Under the pieces are notes generated by a model that did no database searches, was not told where the DNA came from, and was given only the letters and a program-made list of their open reading frames with translations. 50,189 bases of DNA. Source: an uncultured Chlorobiaceae bacterium (lineage in GTDB: Bacteria > Bacteroidota > Chlorobiia > Chlorobiales > Chlorobiaceae). Positions 6,001 to 13,215 of this stretch are shown piece by piece (the first letter of the stretch is position 1; the number at the start of each line of letters is the position of its first letter). The stretch lies in the NCBI GenBank assembly GCA_903824045.1, contig CAIJVD010000005.1, forward strand, positions 1 to 50,189, given 5' to 3'. Made by a program: the position numbers and the translations under genes.

Positions 6001-6402
6001 ATGCGCCTGTTTTCAGCTCAGTCGAGGGTTCTTCTGCTTTGCCGTGCGATGCTTGCCTTCTCCTGGATCTACCAGGGAGCGGTGCCGAAGATTCTCTGCC
6101 GGAGCAGCGGGGAGATCGAGCTTATCGGTCATATTATTCCCCTCTACCAGTGGGCATGTCTGGCGGTGACATGGATGGGCGTGGCCGAAATCGTTTTCGG
6201 TCTTCTCTTGCTTCTGTCGAGAGGGAGTTGGCTCTTATGGTTCAATATCGTAACTTTATCAGGGCTGCTTCTTTACGTTGCACTGCTCGAACCAGGCATG
6301 TTCACGTTGCCGTTCAACCCCCTGACGCTGAATCTTTCACTGATCACGCTTTCGGTGATCGGACTGGTGGAGTTGAAGAAATCTAAACCGGATCATGCAT
6401 GA
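6001..6402 (+). CDS. DoxX-like four-helix membrane protein
   Basis: A 133-residue protein with four predicted membrane helices (about residues 8-25, 45-72, 76-97 and 105-123). The segment FSWIYQGAVPKI near the first helix is typical of the DoxX-like family PF13781. The family's activity is not established; relatives are linked to quinone or sulfur redox chemistry. It starts 39 bases after the efflux pump and its stop overlaps the next start by four bases (ATGA at 6399), so it is coupled to the oxidase-like gene. No strong ribosome site precedes the ATG. A longer overlapping reading frame from 5982 in another phase has no recognisable protein character. Confidence 0.75.
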   Translation: MRLFSAQSRVLLLCRAMLAFSWIYQGAVPKILCRSSGEIELIGHIIPLYQWACLAVTWMGVAEIVFGLLLLLSRGSWLLWFNIVTLSGLLLYVALLEPGMFTLPFNPLTLNLSLITLSVIGLVELKKSKPDHA

Positions 6403-7697
6403 AGCCGCGACGTTTTGACCTTGAGTTGCGCTCGATTGCGGGGCTTTTCCTCTCCTTTTCCGTAACCGTTATAGCCCTTGCCTCTTTTCTCGGAGCGGCC
6501 GGTGCCCTGAGTGCCAACCACTTCCTGCTGAAGCTCCATCCCTATCTCTTTTTTGTCGGATTTGGCAATGTTGCCATTCTTCTGCTCAATCGATATCTGA
6601 CCGCAGCGATCTATCCGGAGCTGAAGATCGACCTCAGAAAACAGCTTCGCTATCTCGCCGCAGTGCTACTTGCGCTGGTGATGATCACTGTTGCAGTGGC
6701 CTTTGAGCTGCCGCTCCTGAAGGCGCTGACCGGGCTCATGCTCATGGTCGTTGTTGCAAGCCCGCTCCGTGAGATTTTTACGACTCTCTCAGTGACGAAA
6801 ATCTGGAAGGAGGTGTCGGTTCGCTACTACATTTTCGATGTTCTCTTTCTGCTCAACGCCAATCTCGGGCTCATGACCCTCGGCCTCAAGGAGGCTTTTC
6901 CCAATTGGGGTGTCATTCCGTTTTTTGTGACACAGTCATCCTATTTCCTTGGTTCCTCGTTTCCCCTGAGCATCAGCGTGATGGGCTTCCTCTATGCCTA
7001 TGCCTGGAGCCGTTCATCGAAACGCGAGCTGATCAGAAAGCTCTTCAGCCTCTGGTTCTATGTGTTTGTCGGGGGGGTTCTGCTCTTTTTGATCGTTATT
7101 CTCGCCGGATACTATTTCGGGATGATGCTGGTGAGCCATACGCTCCTGTTGGGAGTGATTGCGCTGCTGATCGCTTTTGCCGGCTATCTCTACAACTTCT
7201 ATCGCAGAAACTTCCCGCATCCGGCGCTTGCCTTTCTGCTTAGCGGTCTGGCCCTGCTCTTTGCGACCAGCGCCTACGGCATCATGAACATCTACTTTAT
7301 CAAGGGCATCCCTTTCGGTTCCACTCCGCCCATTCCGCAGGAACGGATGTGGATCTACCACTCTCACACCCATGCGGCGCTGCTCGGCTGGATCACCTTC
7401 TCCTTTATCGGCATGCTCTATATCGTTATGCCGGCCATTGCACGCTCAAACTCGCTTGAAACCCTCAGAAGCAAGGATGCGCTCTCTTCACTCCTTCCTG
7501 AGAGCGTTATGCGCAAAGCCTTTGTGCAGCTTACCCTCTTGCTTTTGTCGGCAACTGGAGTTTTGGTTGCGTTTTTTCTTTTGAACGATATGCTGCTCGC
7601 GCTCTCAGGAGTTCTCTATGGCGGTAGTGTCTATTATCTGAAGGTCAATCTCGACCGGGAGCTTTTTGCCGGAAACAGGGGAGCTGAAACGAACTGA
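6399..7697 (+). CDS. Polytopic membrane protein with heme-copper-oxidase-like His motif
   Basis: A 432-residue protein with about 12 predicted membrane helices. Near the C-terminal third it has a His-x-His-x-His cluster (His321, His323, His325) followed by ALLGWITFSFIGMLYIVMP. This resembles helix X of cbb3-type oxidase subunit I and nitric oxide reductase NorB, where a His-x-His pair binds two hemes. His41 or His47 near the second helix could be the partner low-spin heme ligand. I cannot see the paired histidines expected for a copper B site, so it may be an oxidase-fold heme protein without oxygen chemistry, or an NnrS-like protein. It is coupled to the DoxX-like gene by an ATGA overlap. 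The assignment comes from the motif only. Confidence 0.6.
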   Translation: MKPRRFDLELRSIAGLFLSFSVTVIALASFLGAAGALSANHFLLKLHPYLFFVGFGNVAILLLNRYLTAAIYPELKIDLRKQLRYLAAVLLALVMITVAVAFELPLLKALTGLMLMVVVASPLREIFTTLSVTKIWKEVSVRYYIFDVLFLLNANLGLMTLGLKEAFPNWGVIPFFVTQSSYFLGSSFPLSISVMGFLYAYAWSRSSKRELIRKLFSLWFYVFVGGVLLFLIVILAGYYFGMMLVSHTLLLGVIALLIAFAGYLYNFYRRNFPHPALAFLLSGLALLFATSAYGIMNIYFIKGIPFGSTPPIPQERMWIYHSHTHAALLGWITFSFIGMLYIVMPAIARSNSLETLRSKDALSSLLPESVMRKAFVQLTLLLLSATGVLVAFFLLNDMLLALSGVLYGGSVYYLKVNLDRELFAGNRGAETN

Positions 7698-9558: not shown

Positions 9559-12500
9559 ATGACCTTAACGAGTGATCCCGAAATAGCGAAATCAGCAACG
9601 GCTGTGCCGCGTGAGATACCCTTCAACTATACCTCCGCCGGAGACCGTCAGGCGATATCGTTTCTCATGGGGCCGGAGATTGTGCGTATGCTCGACGAGC
9701 TGCGTGAACTTCGTGTTACCGGACGTTCTGCGCGTCTGCTCATGGGCATTGTCGGCGAGATTCTCATTCATAGACGCAACCCCTATCTTTTCCAGGAGCT
9801 GGTGGATTCGCCAGCCCGTCGCCGCCGCCTTTTTGAGCGGGCAGCGCAGGAGCTTGATACCATAGAGGGATCGGCAAACGGCGAAACCCGCGTTACGGTG
9901 ATTGTGACTGCCGTTCGGGAGCAGCTTGAGCGCTTCCGCTCCGCAGTTCGCAAAACCCCTGAACTTCGCCGCCGCCTGAAGCGGGAGCTCGGTGCTGTTG
10001 TAGGCCAGAACAATGTTCTCTTTGACCCCTTCTCTCTTGCGGCTCATGCAACCGATGCCACCGACTGGAGGCTTCATCTTCCTTCTGCGGTGGTGACGCC
10101 CGACCAGGAGTCGCAGGTGGCGCCGCTTATTACGGCCATTGCAACGATGGGGATGAACATCATTCCCCGCGGGGCGGGCACCGGCCTGACAGGTGGAGCT
10201 GTGCCTCTGCGCTCGCGCTGCGTGATTGTGAACATGGAGAAGCTCAACCGGGTCAAGGGTATCACCACAAGGGAGTTTCAGCTTGAAAACGGCCTGATCA
10301 AGGATGCTTCGGTCATCGAGGTCGAGGCCGGAGTTGTCACTGAACGGGCGATGGAGGAGGCCGATGAGCATGGCCTTGTCTTTGCCACCGATCCAACGAG
10401 CGAGTGGTCGTGCACCATCGGCGGCAACATCGCCGAAAATGCCGGCGGCAAGATGGCTGTCCGGTGGGGCACCTGCATCGATAACCTGCTCGAGTGGCGC
10501 ATGGCGATGCCTTCCGGCGAAAACTGGACGGTGAAGCGGGTCGATCACAGGCTTCGCAAAATCATGCACGAGGATACGGTAACCTTTGAGATCTGGAGCG
10601 ATTCGGGCAAAAGGCTTGAGCGCATTGAGCTGCTCGGTACCGATATCCGCAAAAAAGGGCTCTGGAAGGATATTACCAACAAGGCCCTCGGCGGTGTGCC
10701 TGGGCTTCAGAAGGAGGGAACCGACGGGATCATTACCTCTGCTCTCTTTGTGCTCTATGCGAAGTACCCCGAAAAGCGGACACTCTGCCTTGAGTTCTTC
10801 GGTCCGGACATGGATGAAGCCAGCCGCGTCATTGTTGAGCTGTCGAAGATATTTCCGCTTCTGAGTGAGCGCAGTGAGGCGTTGCTTGCCCTTGAACATT
10901 TTGACGACGAGTATATCAGGGCGATCGACTACAAGGTGAAGGCGCCGAGGGCTCAGACGCCGAAAGCGGTGCTCCTGATCGATATTGCTGGCTACACCTC
11001 CGATGATGTTGATTCCGGCGTCAGGCGGGTGGAGGAGCTGCTCGAGACCCATCCCAACACCCTGATGTTCGAGGCGGGGGACGAGGGCGAAGCGGTGCGT
11101 TTCTGGGCTGACCGCAAAAAACTCGGAGCGATCGCCAGAAGGACCAATGCTTTCAAGCTGAACGAGGATATTGTCATTCCGCTTGAAGCGCTTGCCGAGT
11201 TTTCACGATATATCGACGCGCTCAATATTGTTGAGGAACGCTATGCCCAGCGCCGCTTTGTCGAGCGCGCCGCCGAACTTCTCTCAACTGCCGCTGTCAG
11301 CGGCGACGGGGGGCGTTTCGCTTCCAAGATCCCGGCCGGTATCGAGCTCTGCCAGATTTTCGGCGACAGGATCACCGGCGAGGCACCCGAACTCTTGCGT
11401 TCGCTCGCCACGGTGCAGGAGCTTGCAAGGGAGCTCGGAGAGCTTGTGCAGGGTTATCCGCAGGTTGAGGCTGCCATTGAGGGTGCATTTCACCATGCCC
11501 GGGACCGCAGGATCGTTCTTGCCACACACATGCATGCAGGAGATGGCAATGTCCATGTCAATGTTCCGGTTCTCTCCAACGACCGGCCGATGCTTGAGCG
11601 TGCCGACAAGGTGATCGACCGTGTCATGGAAAAGGTTGTCTCGCTTGGCGGAGTTGTTTCCGGCGAGCACGGAATCGGCGTCACGAAGCTGAAATACCTT
11701 GACAAATCCATTATCGAGGAGCTGAACAGGTATCGCTGCAAGGTCGATCCGAAAGGGATCATGAACCCCGGAAAGCTCAACGATCTGGAGGCTCTCGACC
11801 ATATCTTCACCCCTTCGTTCAACCTGCTCGAACTTGAGGCGCATATTCTGAGGAGGGCCCAGATCGAGGAGCTCTCCAAGAAGGTCAACTACTGCATCCG
11901 GTGCGGCAAATGCAAGACGGACTGCTGCGTCTACTACCCCTCAAGGGGGATGTTCTACCACCCACGCAACAAGAACCTTGCCATCGGCTCGCTTATTGAG
12001 GCGCTGCTTTTTGACGCCCAGCGTGAACGCACGACCGATTTCGCCCTCTTGAAGTGGCTTGAGGAGGTTGCCGATCACTGCACCATCTGCCATAAATGCC
12101 TCAAGCCCTGTCCTGTCGATATCGATACCGGCGAGGTCTCGGTGCTTGAGCGTGAAATCCTTACGGAGTGGGGTTTCAAGCACTCTTCGCCCGTTACCGA
12201 AATGACGCTCCGCTATCTCGACAGCCGTTCGCCGTCCTTCAATGCGTTCTTCCGCAAAACGGTGCTTCGGGCAGGCGGAGCCCTCCAGAGAGCAGGATGC
12301 AGGCTCAGTGCCCCGATTCAGCCGGAGAATGATCCGCCCGCCTTCTATCCGCTGAGGCTGCTCCGCTCGTCGGTGCCCCCGGTACCCGAACGCACGCTGC
12401 GTGACGTGCTGCCGGAGTGCGGTCCTGACGAGGTGCTTGTTTTTGAGCCGTCGGGAGAGGTGAAAAGCAATATTTTCTATTTCCCAGGGTGCGGTTCCGA

Positions 12501-13215
12501 GCGGCTGAACTCGACCATCTCGATGGCGGCGATCCATCTTCTGCTGGAGCTTGGAGTGCGTGTTGTGCTTCCGCCACCGTTTCTCTGCTGCGGCTTTCCC
12601 GCCCATGTCAATGCGAAGGCGGAGCAGTATTCGAGCATCGTGCTTCGCAACACCGTTCTCTTCAGCCAGATCCGGGAGATGTTCTCCTATCTCCATTTTG
12701 ATGCCTGTGTGGTGACCTGCGGAACCTGCATGGAGGGTCTTGATGCCATTGAGACCGGCAAGCTGTTTGGCAGCCGCATCGTCGATATTGCCGCCTATGC
12801 GCTTGAAAAAGGGCTGAGGGTTGAGGGGGAGGAGAGCTGCCTCTACCACGCCCCCTGCCACGACTCGCTTGCCGGCAGGGCGCAGGAGACCCTCAAGGCT
12901 CTTGGCGGATTTGGCACCGTTACACCGGTACCCCACTGCTGTTCGGAGGCCGGCACGCTGTCACTCTCTCGCCCCGATATCACCGACTCCATGCTGCACC
13001 GGAAACGGGATGCCATTATGGAGGTCAAGCGCCAGACCGAGAGCACCTGCATCCTGACCAACTGCCCCTCCTGTGTTCAGGGACTGGGGAGGAATCTTGA
13101 TCTCGGTGTTAAGCCTCTGCATATTGTCGTTGCCCTTGCTGAAAAGATCTCCGGTTCCGACTGGAGGGTGCGCATGCTGGAGCAGGCATCGAGTGCGGCC
13201 AAGGTGAGTTTCTGA
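9559..13215 (+). CDS. DUF3683 FAD-linked / 4Fe-4S / CCG-domain fusion dehydrogenase
   Basis: A 1218-residue fusion that reads as a D-2-hydroxyacid (lactate or glycolate type) dehydrogenase with its own electron chain. The N-terminal about 100 residues match DUF3683 (REIPFNYTSAGDRQ, TGRSARLL, RRNPYL). An FAD-binding PCMH domain follows (PRGAGTGLTGGAVP) with the C-terminal oxidase domain carrying HMHAGDGNVHVNVPV and GEHGIGVTK. Two ferredoxin-like clusters begin at Cys779 (CIRCGKCKTDCC) and Cys841 (CTICHKCLKPCP). Two cysteine-rich CCG domains follow (FPGCGSERLN near 978, FLCCGFPAH, APCHDS, HCCSEAG), as in GlpC, GlcF or HdrB. It stands alone with a terminator behind it. The physiological substrate and acceptor are not shown by sequence. 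Confidence 0.9.
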   Translation: MTLTSDPEIAKSATAVPREIPFNYTSAGDRQAISFLMGPEIVRMLDELRELRVTGRSARLLMGIVGEILIHRRNPYLFQELVDSPARRRRLFERAAQELDTIEGSANGETRVTVIVTAVREQLERFRSAVRKTPELRRRLKRELGAVVGQNNVLFDPFSLAAHATDATDWRLHLPSAVVTPDQESQVAPLITAIATMGMNIIPRGAGTGLTGGAVPLRSRCVIVNMEKLNRVKGITTREFQLENGLIKDASVIEVEAGVVTERAMEEADEHGLVFATDPTSEWSCTIGGNIAENAGGKMAVRWGTCIDNLLEWRMAMPSGENWTVKRVDHRLRKIMHEDTVTFEIWSDSGKRLERIELLGTDIRKKGLWKDITNKALGGVPGLQKEGTDGIITSALFVLYAKYPEKRTLCLEFFGPDMDEASRVIVELSKIFPLLSERSEALLALEHFDDEYIRAIDYKVKAPRAQTPKAVLLIDIAGYTSDDVDSGVRRVEELLETHPNTLMFEAGDEGEAVRFWADRKKLGAIARRTNAFKLNEDIVIPLEALAEFSRYIDALNIVEERYAQRRFVERAAELLSTAAVSGDGGRFASKIPAGIELCQIFGDRITGEAPELLRSLATVQELARELGELVQGYPQVEAAIEGAFHHARDRRIVLATHMHAGDGNVHVNVPVLSNDRPMLERADKVIDRVMEKVVSLGGVVSGEHGIGVTKLKYLDKSIIEELNRYRCKVDPKGIMNPGKLNDLEALDHIFTPSFNLLELEAHILRRAQIEELSKKVNYCIRCGKCKTDCCVYYPSRGMFYHPRNKNLAIGSLIEALLFDAQRERTTDFALLKWLEEVADHCTICHKCLKPCPVDIDTGEVSVLEREILTEWGFKHSSPVTEMTLRYLDSRSPSFNAFFRKTVLRAGGALQRAGCRLSAPIQPENDPPAFYPLRLLRSSVPPVPERTLRDVLPECGPDEVLVFEPSGEVKSNIFYFPGCGSERLNSTISMAAIHLLLELGVRVVLPPPFLCCGFPAHVNAKAEQYSSIVLRNTVLFSQIREMFSYLHFDACVVTCGTCMEGLDAIETGKLFGSRIVDIAAYALEKGLRVEGEESCLYHAPCHDSLAGRAQETLKALGGFGTVTPVPHCCSEAGTLSLSRPDITDSMLHRKRDAIMEVKRQTESTCILTNCPSCVQGLGRNLDLGVKPLHIVVALAEKISGSDWRVRMLEQASSAAKVSF

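Follow-up and report, generated by a model that had tools for sequence, protein, structure and literature searches.

In true members of the heme-copper oxidase superfamily, helix VI bears a CuB or FeB ligand, and the three CuB histidines lie on helices VI and VII. NO reductases carry a glutamate on helix VI, and NnrS is linked to heme and NO. In CcoN of the cbb3 oxidases, we take the first histidine of the GHVH motif to be the high-spin heme ligand and the second to be the low-spin heme ligand. DoxDA, as described in an excerpt of PMC6335251, is a membrane-bound thiosulfate:quinone enzyme. According to an extract of PMC3084760, a classifier of the superfamily discarded sequences lacking any of the six ligand histidines, so that proteins like the one described here would fall outside such a census. 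Chlorobi-specific proteins are listed by locus only in the sections of PMC1887533 consulted, and no description of the gene pair reported here was recognised in the open-licence literature searched.

The stretch of DNA analysed here, which we denote as the window, is contig C5:1-50189 (50,189 nucleotides) of a 2.09 Mb genome of an uncultured Chlorobiaceae bacterium. It contains two adjoining genes, P1 and P2.

6001..6402, + strand: P1, DoxX_3 family protein of 133 aa
6399..7697, + strand: P2, 12-helix protein of 432 aa with a predicted heme-copper oxidase fold

P1 matched PF13781 with an E value of 1.1e-26 (93.7 bits, cut-off 25), and the end of P1 and the start of P2 share the bases ATGA. P1 lay directly upstream of P2 in all 51 loci checked, some of which come from the same genome, and the P2 start codon fell within a range from 23 bases upstream to 25 bases downstream of the P1 end, the two reading frames overlapping in 30 loci. 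An earlier sequence-only reading of this DNA had proposed a DoxX-like protein translationally coupled to a 432-residue protein with His321, His323 and His325, and the neighbour, the close coupling and the three histidines were all confirmed. That reading also suggested a two-subunit membrane redox unit, which might handle quinones, sulfur compounds or nitric oxide. P1 and P2 are likely to form a complex. We read P2 as a subunit I homologue that keeps the ligands of two hemes but has no copper site, and P1-P2 as a two-subunit membrane redox unit, a reading that we hold with even confidence for and against.

The structure of P2 was predicted with AlphaFold2 from 22 related sequences, free of templates. 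The model showed 12 transmembrane-length helices (pLDDT 72.7, pTM 0.77), and its pLDDT fell below 50 at residues 175-187 and 299-323; the beginning of helix VI, His321 and His323 lie in these stretches. In a Foldseek search, ranks 1-3 were cbb3 subunit I chains (E 3.3e-3 to 3.5e-3, probability 1.00) and rank 4 was an unrelated receptor (E 0.097); nothing was found at E <= 0.001, and the rmsd was near 8.7. VIA-align, taken as a second look at Foldseek's list, aligned 392 residues of the model with cbb3 subunit I at Z 26.6, and gave Z scores of 25.7 for cNOR and 21.6 for qNOR. The best 50 matches, down to Z 18.9, all belonged to the heme-copper superfamily, and helical bundles may by chance reach a Z of about 13. 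Lysine and arginine residues of P2 numbered 22 on the even loops (inside) and five on the odd loops (outside), suggesting an N-in topology as in oxidases, which sets His47 and the histidines of helix X in the periplasmic half.

By sequence, P2 was assigned to no Pfam or NCBIfam family and matched no PDB entry. PF00115 was detected by hmmscan in none of 22 members of the P2 family; weak matches at helix X of P2 were found in two of 14 genomes of f1, the bacterial family to which the window belongs (E 8.1e-4 and 8.2e-4, 17-18 bits), and P2 scored 17.2 bits against PF00115, below the cut-off of 34.8. In hhalign comparisons with a profile of ten CcoN sequences, P2 scored 39.3 (E 2.7e-4) over helices IX-XII, with an HH-suite probability of only 42%. 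All 100 column shuffles scored lower (maximum 28.1), the reversed alignment scored 15.3, and unrelated membrane proteins (two MFS transporters and the RND pump of the window) scored 11.2-15.6. The alignment set SHTHAALLGW of P2 over GHVHMGTMGW of CcoN; forced full-length profile alignments of P2 were unreliable outside helix X. An ungapped scan placed helix X of CcoN at P2 318-347 (z 7.5; next best 3.0). Helix II of CcoN went first to helix X of P2 (4.49) and second to residues 44-71 (z 4.28), where His47 coincides exactly with the histidine of helix II. Helix VIII went first, narrowly, to residues 242-268 (3.02 vs 2.97), helix XII reached residues 397-419 as second choice and helix IX its correct place as third, while helices I, VI, VII and XI missed their expected places in P2.

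Similarity to NorB was far lower, with E values of 0.047 (qNor) and 0.1 (cNorB) that were close to the reversed controls. With NnrS, represented by one sequence, no profile match was obtained (hhalign 12.8 vs 16.8 for the reversed control), nor was there a Pfam PF05940 hit. By profile score, the closest characterised relative of P2 is thus cbb3 CcoN (39.3 vs 35.5 for a second oxidase-like family, f89, described below). The oxidase fold suggested in the earlier reading is supported by both the model and the CcoN profile, and structure prediction led to the heme-copper superfamily rather than to a family without heme. Of the helix X resemblance noted there, the part concerning cbb3 held and the part concerning NorB became much weaker, and the comparison with NnrS that it proposed gave no match.

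If P2 had no oxidase fold, its match would reflect a generic 12-helix resemblance. The modest Foldseek E value of 3.3e-3, the rmsd of 8.7, the mean pLDDT and the lack of COX1 Pfam hits by hmmscan (0/22) would fit such a case. However, the sequence profile independently supports the fold, unrelated membrane proteins scored far below P2 against the profile, and the best 50 structural matches, with Z of at least 18.9, were all superfamily members, making this explanation extremely improbable.

The conservation of P2 was examined in 58 distinct relatives. P2 has seven histidines, of which His41 varies and the following six are identical in 58/58 sequences.

6537..6539, + strand: codon of His47, helix II, proposed low-spin heme ligand
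7137..7139, + strand: codon of His247, helix VIII
7218..7220, + strand: codon of His274, predicted inner side before helix IX
7359..7361, + strand: codon of His321
7365..7367, + strand: codon of His323, helix X, proposed ligand of a second (b3-like) heme
7371..7373, + strand: codon of His325, helix X, proposed low-spin heme ligand

With 134 of 432 positions of P2 invariant, the chance of at least six of seven histidines being invariant is 0.004. The register of SHTHAALLGW over GHVHMGTMGW puts His323, under the first histidine of the CcoN motif, on the high-spin ligand position and His325, under the second, on the low-spin ligand position. Together with His47, whose register with CcoN helix II is that of the second-best place in the scan, the heme ligands of a subunit I are accounted for, with His47 and His325 for the low-spin heme and His323 for the high-spin heme. 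P2 therefore very probably binds heme, judging from these ligand positions. Variation of His321, His323 and His325 among homologues, which had been named in advance as evidence against the sequence-only reading, was seen in no sequence; that reading had overlooked His47, the ligand on helix II.

Heme ligands without a second metal, conserved throughout the family, would also suit a protein that transports, inserts or stores heme on an oxidase scaffold without electron transfer. Such a protein would have no need for two separate heme sites, and no heme-biosynthesis or cytochrome-assembly gene was found among the scanned neighbours of P1-P2. We consider this role quite unlikely.

Unlike the heme positions, the site of the second metal has no counterpart in P2.

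6912..7010, + strand: helix VI region of P2, residues 172-204, without metal ligands

Residues 172-204 contained no histidine, cysteine, aspartate or glutamate in any of the 58 sequences. Histidines occurred in six of the 58 within residues 205-240 and in 15 within residues 167-238, at no conserved place in either case. The CuB/FeB site is therefore absent from every P2 compared, in line with the earlier statement that no histidine pair for CuB could be found. P2 is thus a homologue within the superfamily that lacks this site, not an O2 or NO reductase of known type. Eight residues of helix VI (Thr178, Ser180, Tyr182, Ser186, Ser187, Ser191, Ser193 and Tyr199) were invariant in 58/58, and a helix so rich in invariant Ser, Thr and Tyr implies a strong constraint, which speaks against decay. 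The loss of the CuB/FeB site in all 58 sequences is what would be expected of a cofactor-free relic or structural pseudo-oxidase, but neither the histidines in the heme positions nor the wall of helix VI vary across the family, and we give the relic explanation little credence.

The partner protein P1 has its own conserved residues, including two cysteines.

6097..6099, + strand: codon of Cys33 of P1, predicted TM1-TM2 loop
6157..6159, + strand: codon of Cys53 of P1

Among 56 distinct DoxX proteins linked to P2, Cys33 and Cys53 each occurred in 55, the exception to Cys33 having Cys34, and His44 was present in 49/56. At both places, cysteine was missing from all seven stand-alone DoxX_3 proteins compared; two came from a different family of the order, two from other Bacteroidota, two from Pseudoalteromonas and one from Niallia. 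The loop with both cysteines is predicted to be outside, in the periplasm, judged by charge. A structural model of the DoxX protein was poor (pLDDT 57.7, pTM 0.40). In the DoxX partner of one genome (G102, locus L170), Cys53 is replaced by Phe and His44 by Tyr, and Cys33 is kept. Elsewhere in the order, in a different family, two genomes carry a lone DoxX_3 gene (L137:5200-5643 and L138:5396-5836) with neither an adjoining P2 nor the two cysteines.

Of 394 Bacteroidota genomes searched with a profile, 81 contained P2, and every one belonged to family f1 (two genera), which we infer to be Chlorobiaceae; none of the genomes listed in that search carried it outside f1, the listing leaving 293 genomes that had no match unnamed. 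A scan of genome_contigs found only two Chlorobium MAG loci (74-76% identity), from which we take the organism to be a green sulfur bacterium, and no P2 was found in viral_contigs or in plasmids. Five f1 genomes in the draw had no P2, and the same five had no P1 at E 0.001. In G217 and G366, two of these genomes, the contig stops 4.4 and 4.6 kb past the second phoU, roughly at the expected start of the pair. The downstream glycosyltransferase was matched weakly (29-39%) in four of these five genomes and not at all in the fifth. At least two of the absences resemble assembly gaps, and the joint absence of P1 and P2 was therefore not counted as support for the pair.

The usual gene order was phoU, phoU, RND adaptor, RND pump, P1, P2, glycosyltransferase and SDR. 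The glycosyltransferase followed P2 in 20/20 stretches of twenty kilobases. The RND genes were absent from view or more than 4 kb away in eight of these, indicating that they are not part of the P1-P2 unit. Two other features of the surroundings were observed. An exported-looking pentapeptide-repeat ORF lies between P2 and the glycosyltransferase in 10/20 stretches (L112-L118, L121, L123 and L125); the one scanned was PF00805, and L124 holds only an 85-aa remnant. At 9559-13215 of the window, and downstream in many stretches, a single ORF of 1218 aa combines DUF3683, FAD-linked oxidase, 4Fe-4S and CCG domains.

P2 was also present in three f1 genomes, out of 14 tested, in which PF00115 revealed no true heme-copper oxidase, the genome of the window being one of them. 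P2 is therefore not simply a cbb3 accessory. The genome of the window has a cytochrome bd. In genome G052, a PF00115 gene (C1:1691936-1694491) has two in-frame stops and is possibly decaying; an intact PF00115 gene lies elsewhere in that genome.

A second family of oxidase-like proteins of 430 aa (f89) was located at L089:2188-3477, L090:2309-3622, L185:8235-9590 and L186-L197. Of 198 Bacteroidota genomes, 13 contained it, with no f1 genome among those listed. Conserved histidines of f89 (n=12 sequences) are His47, 58, 190 and 192, with His190 and His192 in 12/12 and none in helix X, and one member matched PF00115 with 36.2 bits. The profile of P2 scored 35.5 against that of f89, above all 100 shuffles (maximum 24.9) and second to CcoN. 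The existence of f89 in addition to P2 suggests that copper-less oxidase-fold proteins may recur. A separate short protein at L092:2456-2917 (154 aa, four helices, SAHTHIILIG, PF00115 E 1.6e-6) is also oxidase-like and lies upstream of a 542-aa NorB-like gene.

The f89 family keeps an NO-related role among the rivals for P2. P2 could be an NO or O2 scavenger or sensor, like NnrS or f89, that protects an anaerobic phototroph, with P1 stabilising it or supplying electrons. In the absence of CuB, a heme would be expected to bind NO or O2, one f89 member lies near a DUF542/hemerythrin protein in one cluster, and pSymA of S. meliloti carries, 1.9 kb away from NnrS, an f89 homologue that has no Pfam family. 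However, no NO or nitrogen-oxide gene was seen among the neighbours of P1-P2 (phoU, RND, glycosyltransferase and SDR), and P2 has no profile match to NnrS. A protective role of this kind seems unlikely to us.

Our preferred reading remains a P1-P2 redox unit, which probably does a different redox job from the known oxidases; whether the pair has a redox function at all we judge about evenly poised. Under this reading, His47 and His325 would hold a low-spin heme and His323 a second heme. The three CuB/FeB histidines would have been lost, and the former ligand helix VI would now form an invariant wall rich in Ser, Thr and Tyr. P1 and P2 would form a redox unit near the periplasmic face, with the cysteine pair of P1 in the predicted periplasmic loop. 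The low-spin heme might exchange electrons with the P1 thiols (or menaquinol) and relay them to the second heme, which, being free of copper, may serve as a one-electron site or bind a small ligand such as O2, NO or a sulfur compound. A bolder and rather doubtful extension is that the pair is a heme-copper-fold enzyme of anaerobic phototrophs whose chemistry takes place at a copper-free heme in a Ser/Thr/Tyr pocket and which exchanges electrons with a DoxX dithiol, and hence a branch of the superfamily that is coupled to thiols or sulfur and carries out a new reaction. If the preferred reading is true, heme ligands without a second metal would mean that the oxidase scaffold has been re-used for other chemistry, and the P2 family would be a natural test of a heme pair without CuB.

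Among known systems, DoxDA resembles the pair in that P1 is of the DoxX-like kind. However, neither P1 nor P2 hit the DoxD and DoxA Pfam models up to E 5, and the partner of P1 is an oxidase-fold protein, so P1-P2 was rejected as a DoxDA. NnrS (PF05940), like P2, is a polytopic membrane protein; the lack of a Pfam hit and the hhalign score below its reversed control spoke against P2 being an NnrS. The f89 proteins share with P2 the PF00115-like character, the copper-less pattern and the profile score, but their H-x-H is in mid-protein (190/192), a region where P2 has no histidine (172-204), rather than in helix X, and no DoxX was seen beside the two f89 loci read. The cNOR and qNOR enzymes share the fold of the P2 model, whereas P2 has neither the FeB histidines nor an acidic helix VI residue and its NorB profile scores lie near the reversed controls; the lack of His, Asp and Glu throughout 172-204 led us to reject P2 as an NO reductase. 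As an O2 reductase subunit I, P2 has the predicted fold and the heme ligands but not the CuB histidines or a sufficient PF00115 score, and it was rejected as an O2 reductase. P2 differs from cbb3 CcoN in the missing CuB histidines of helices VI and VII and in its PF00115 score; the two are alike in the 12-helix fold of the model and in the helix X HxH and helix II histidine, which stand in register.
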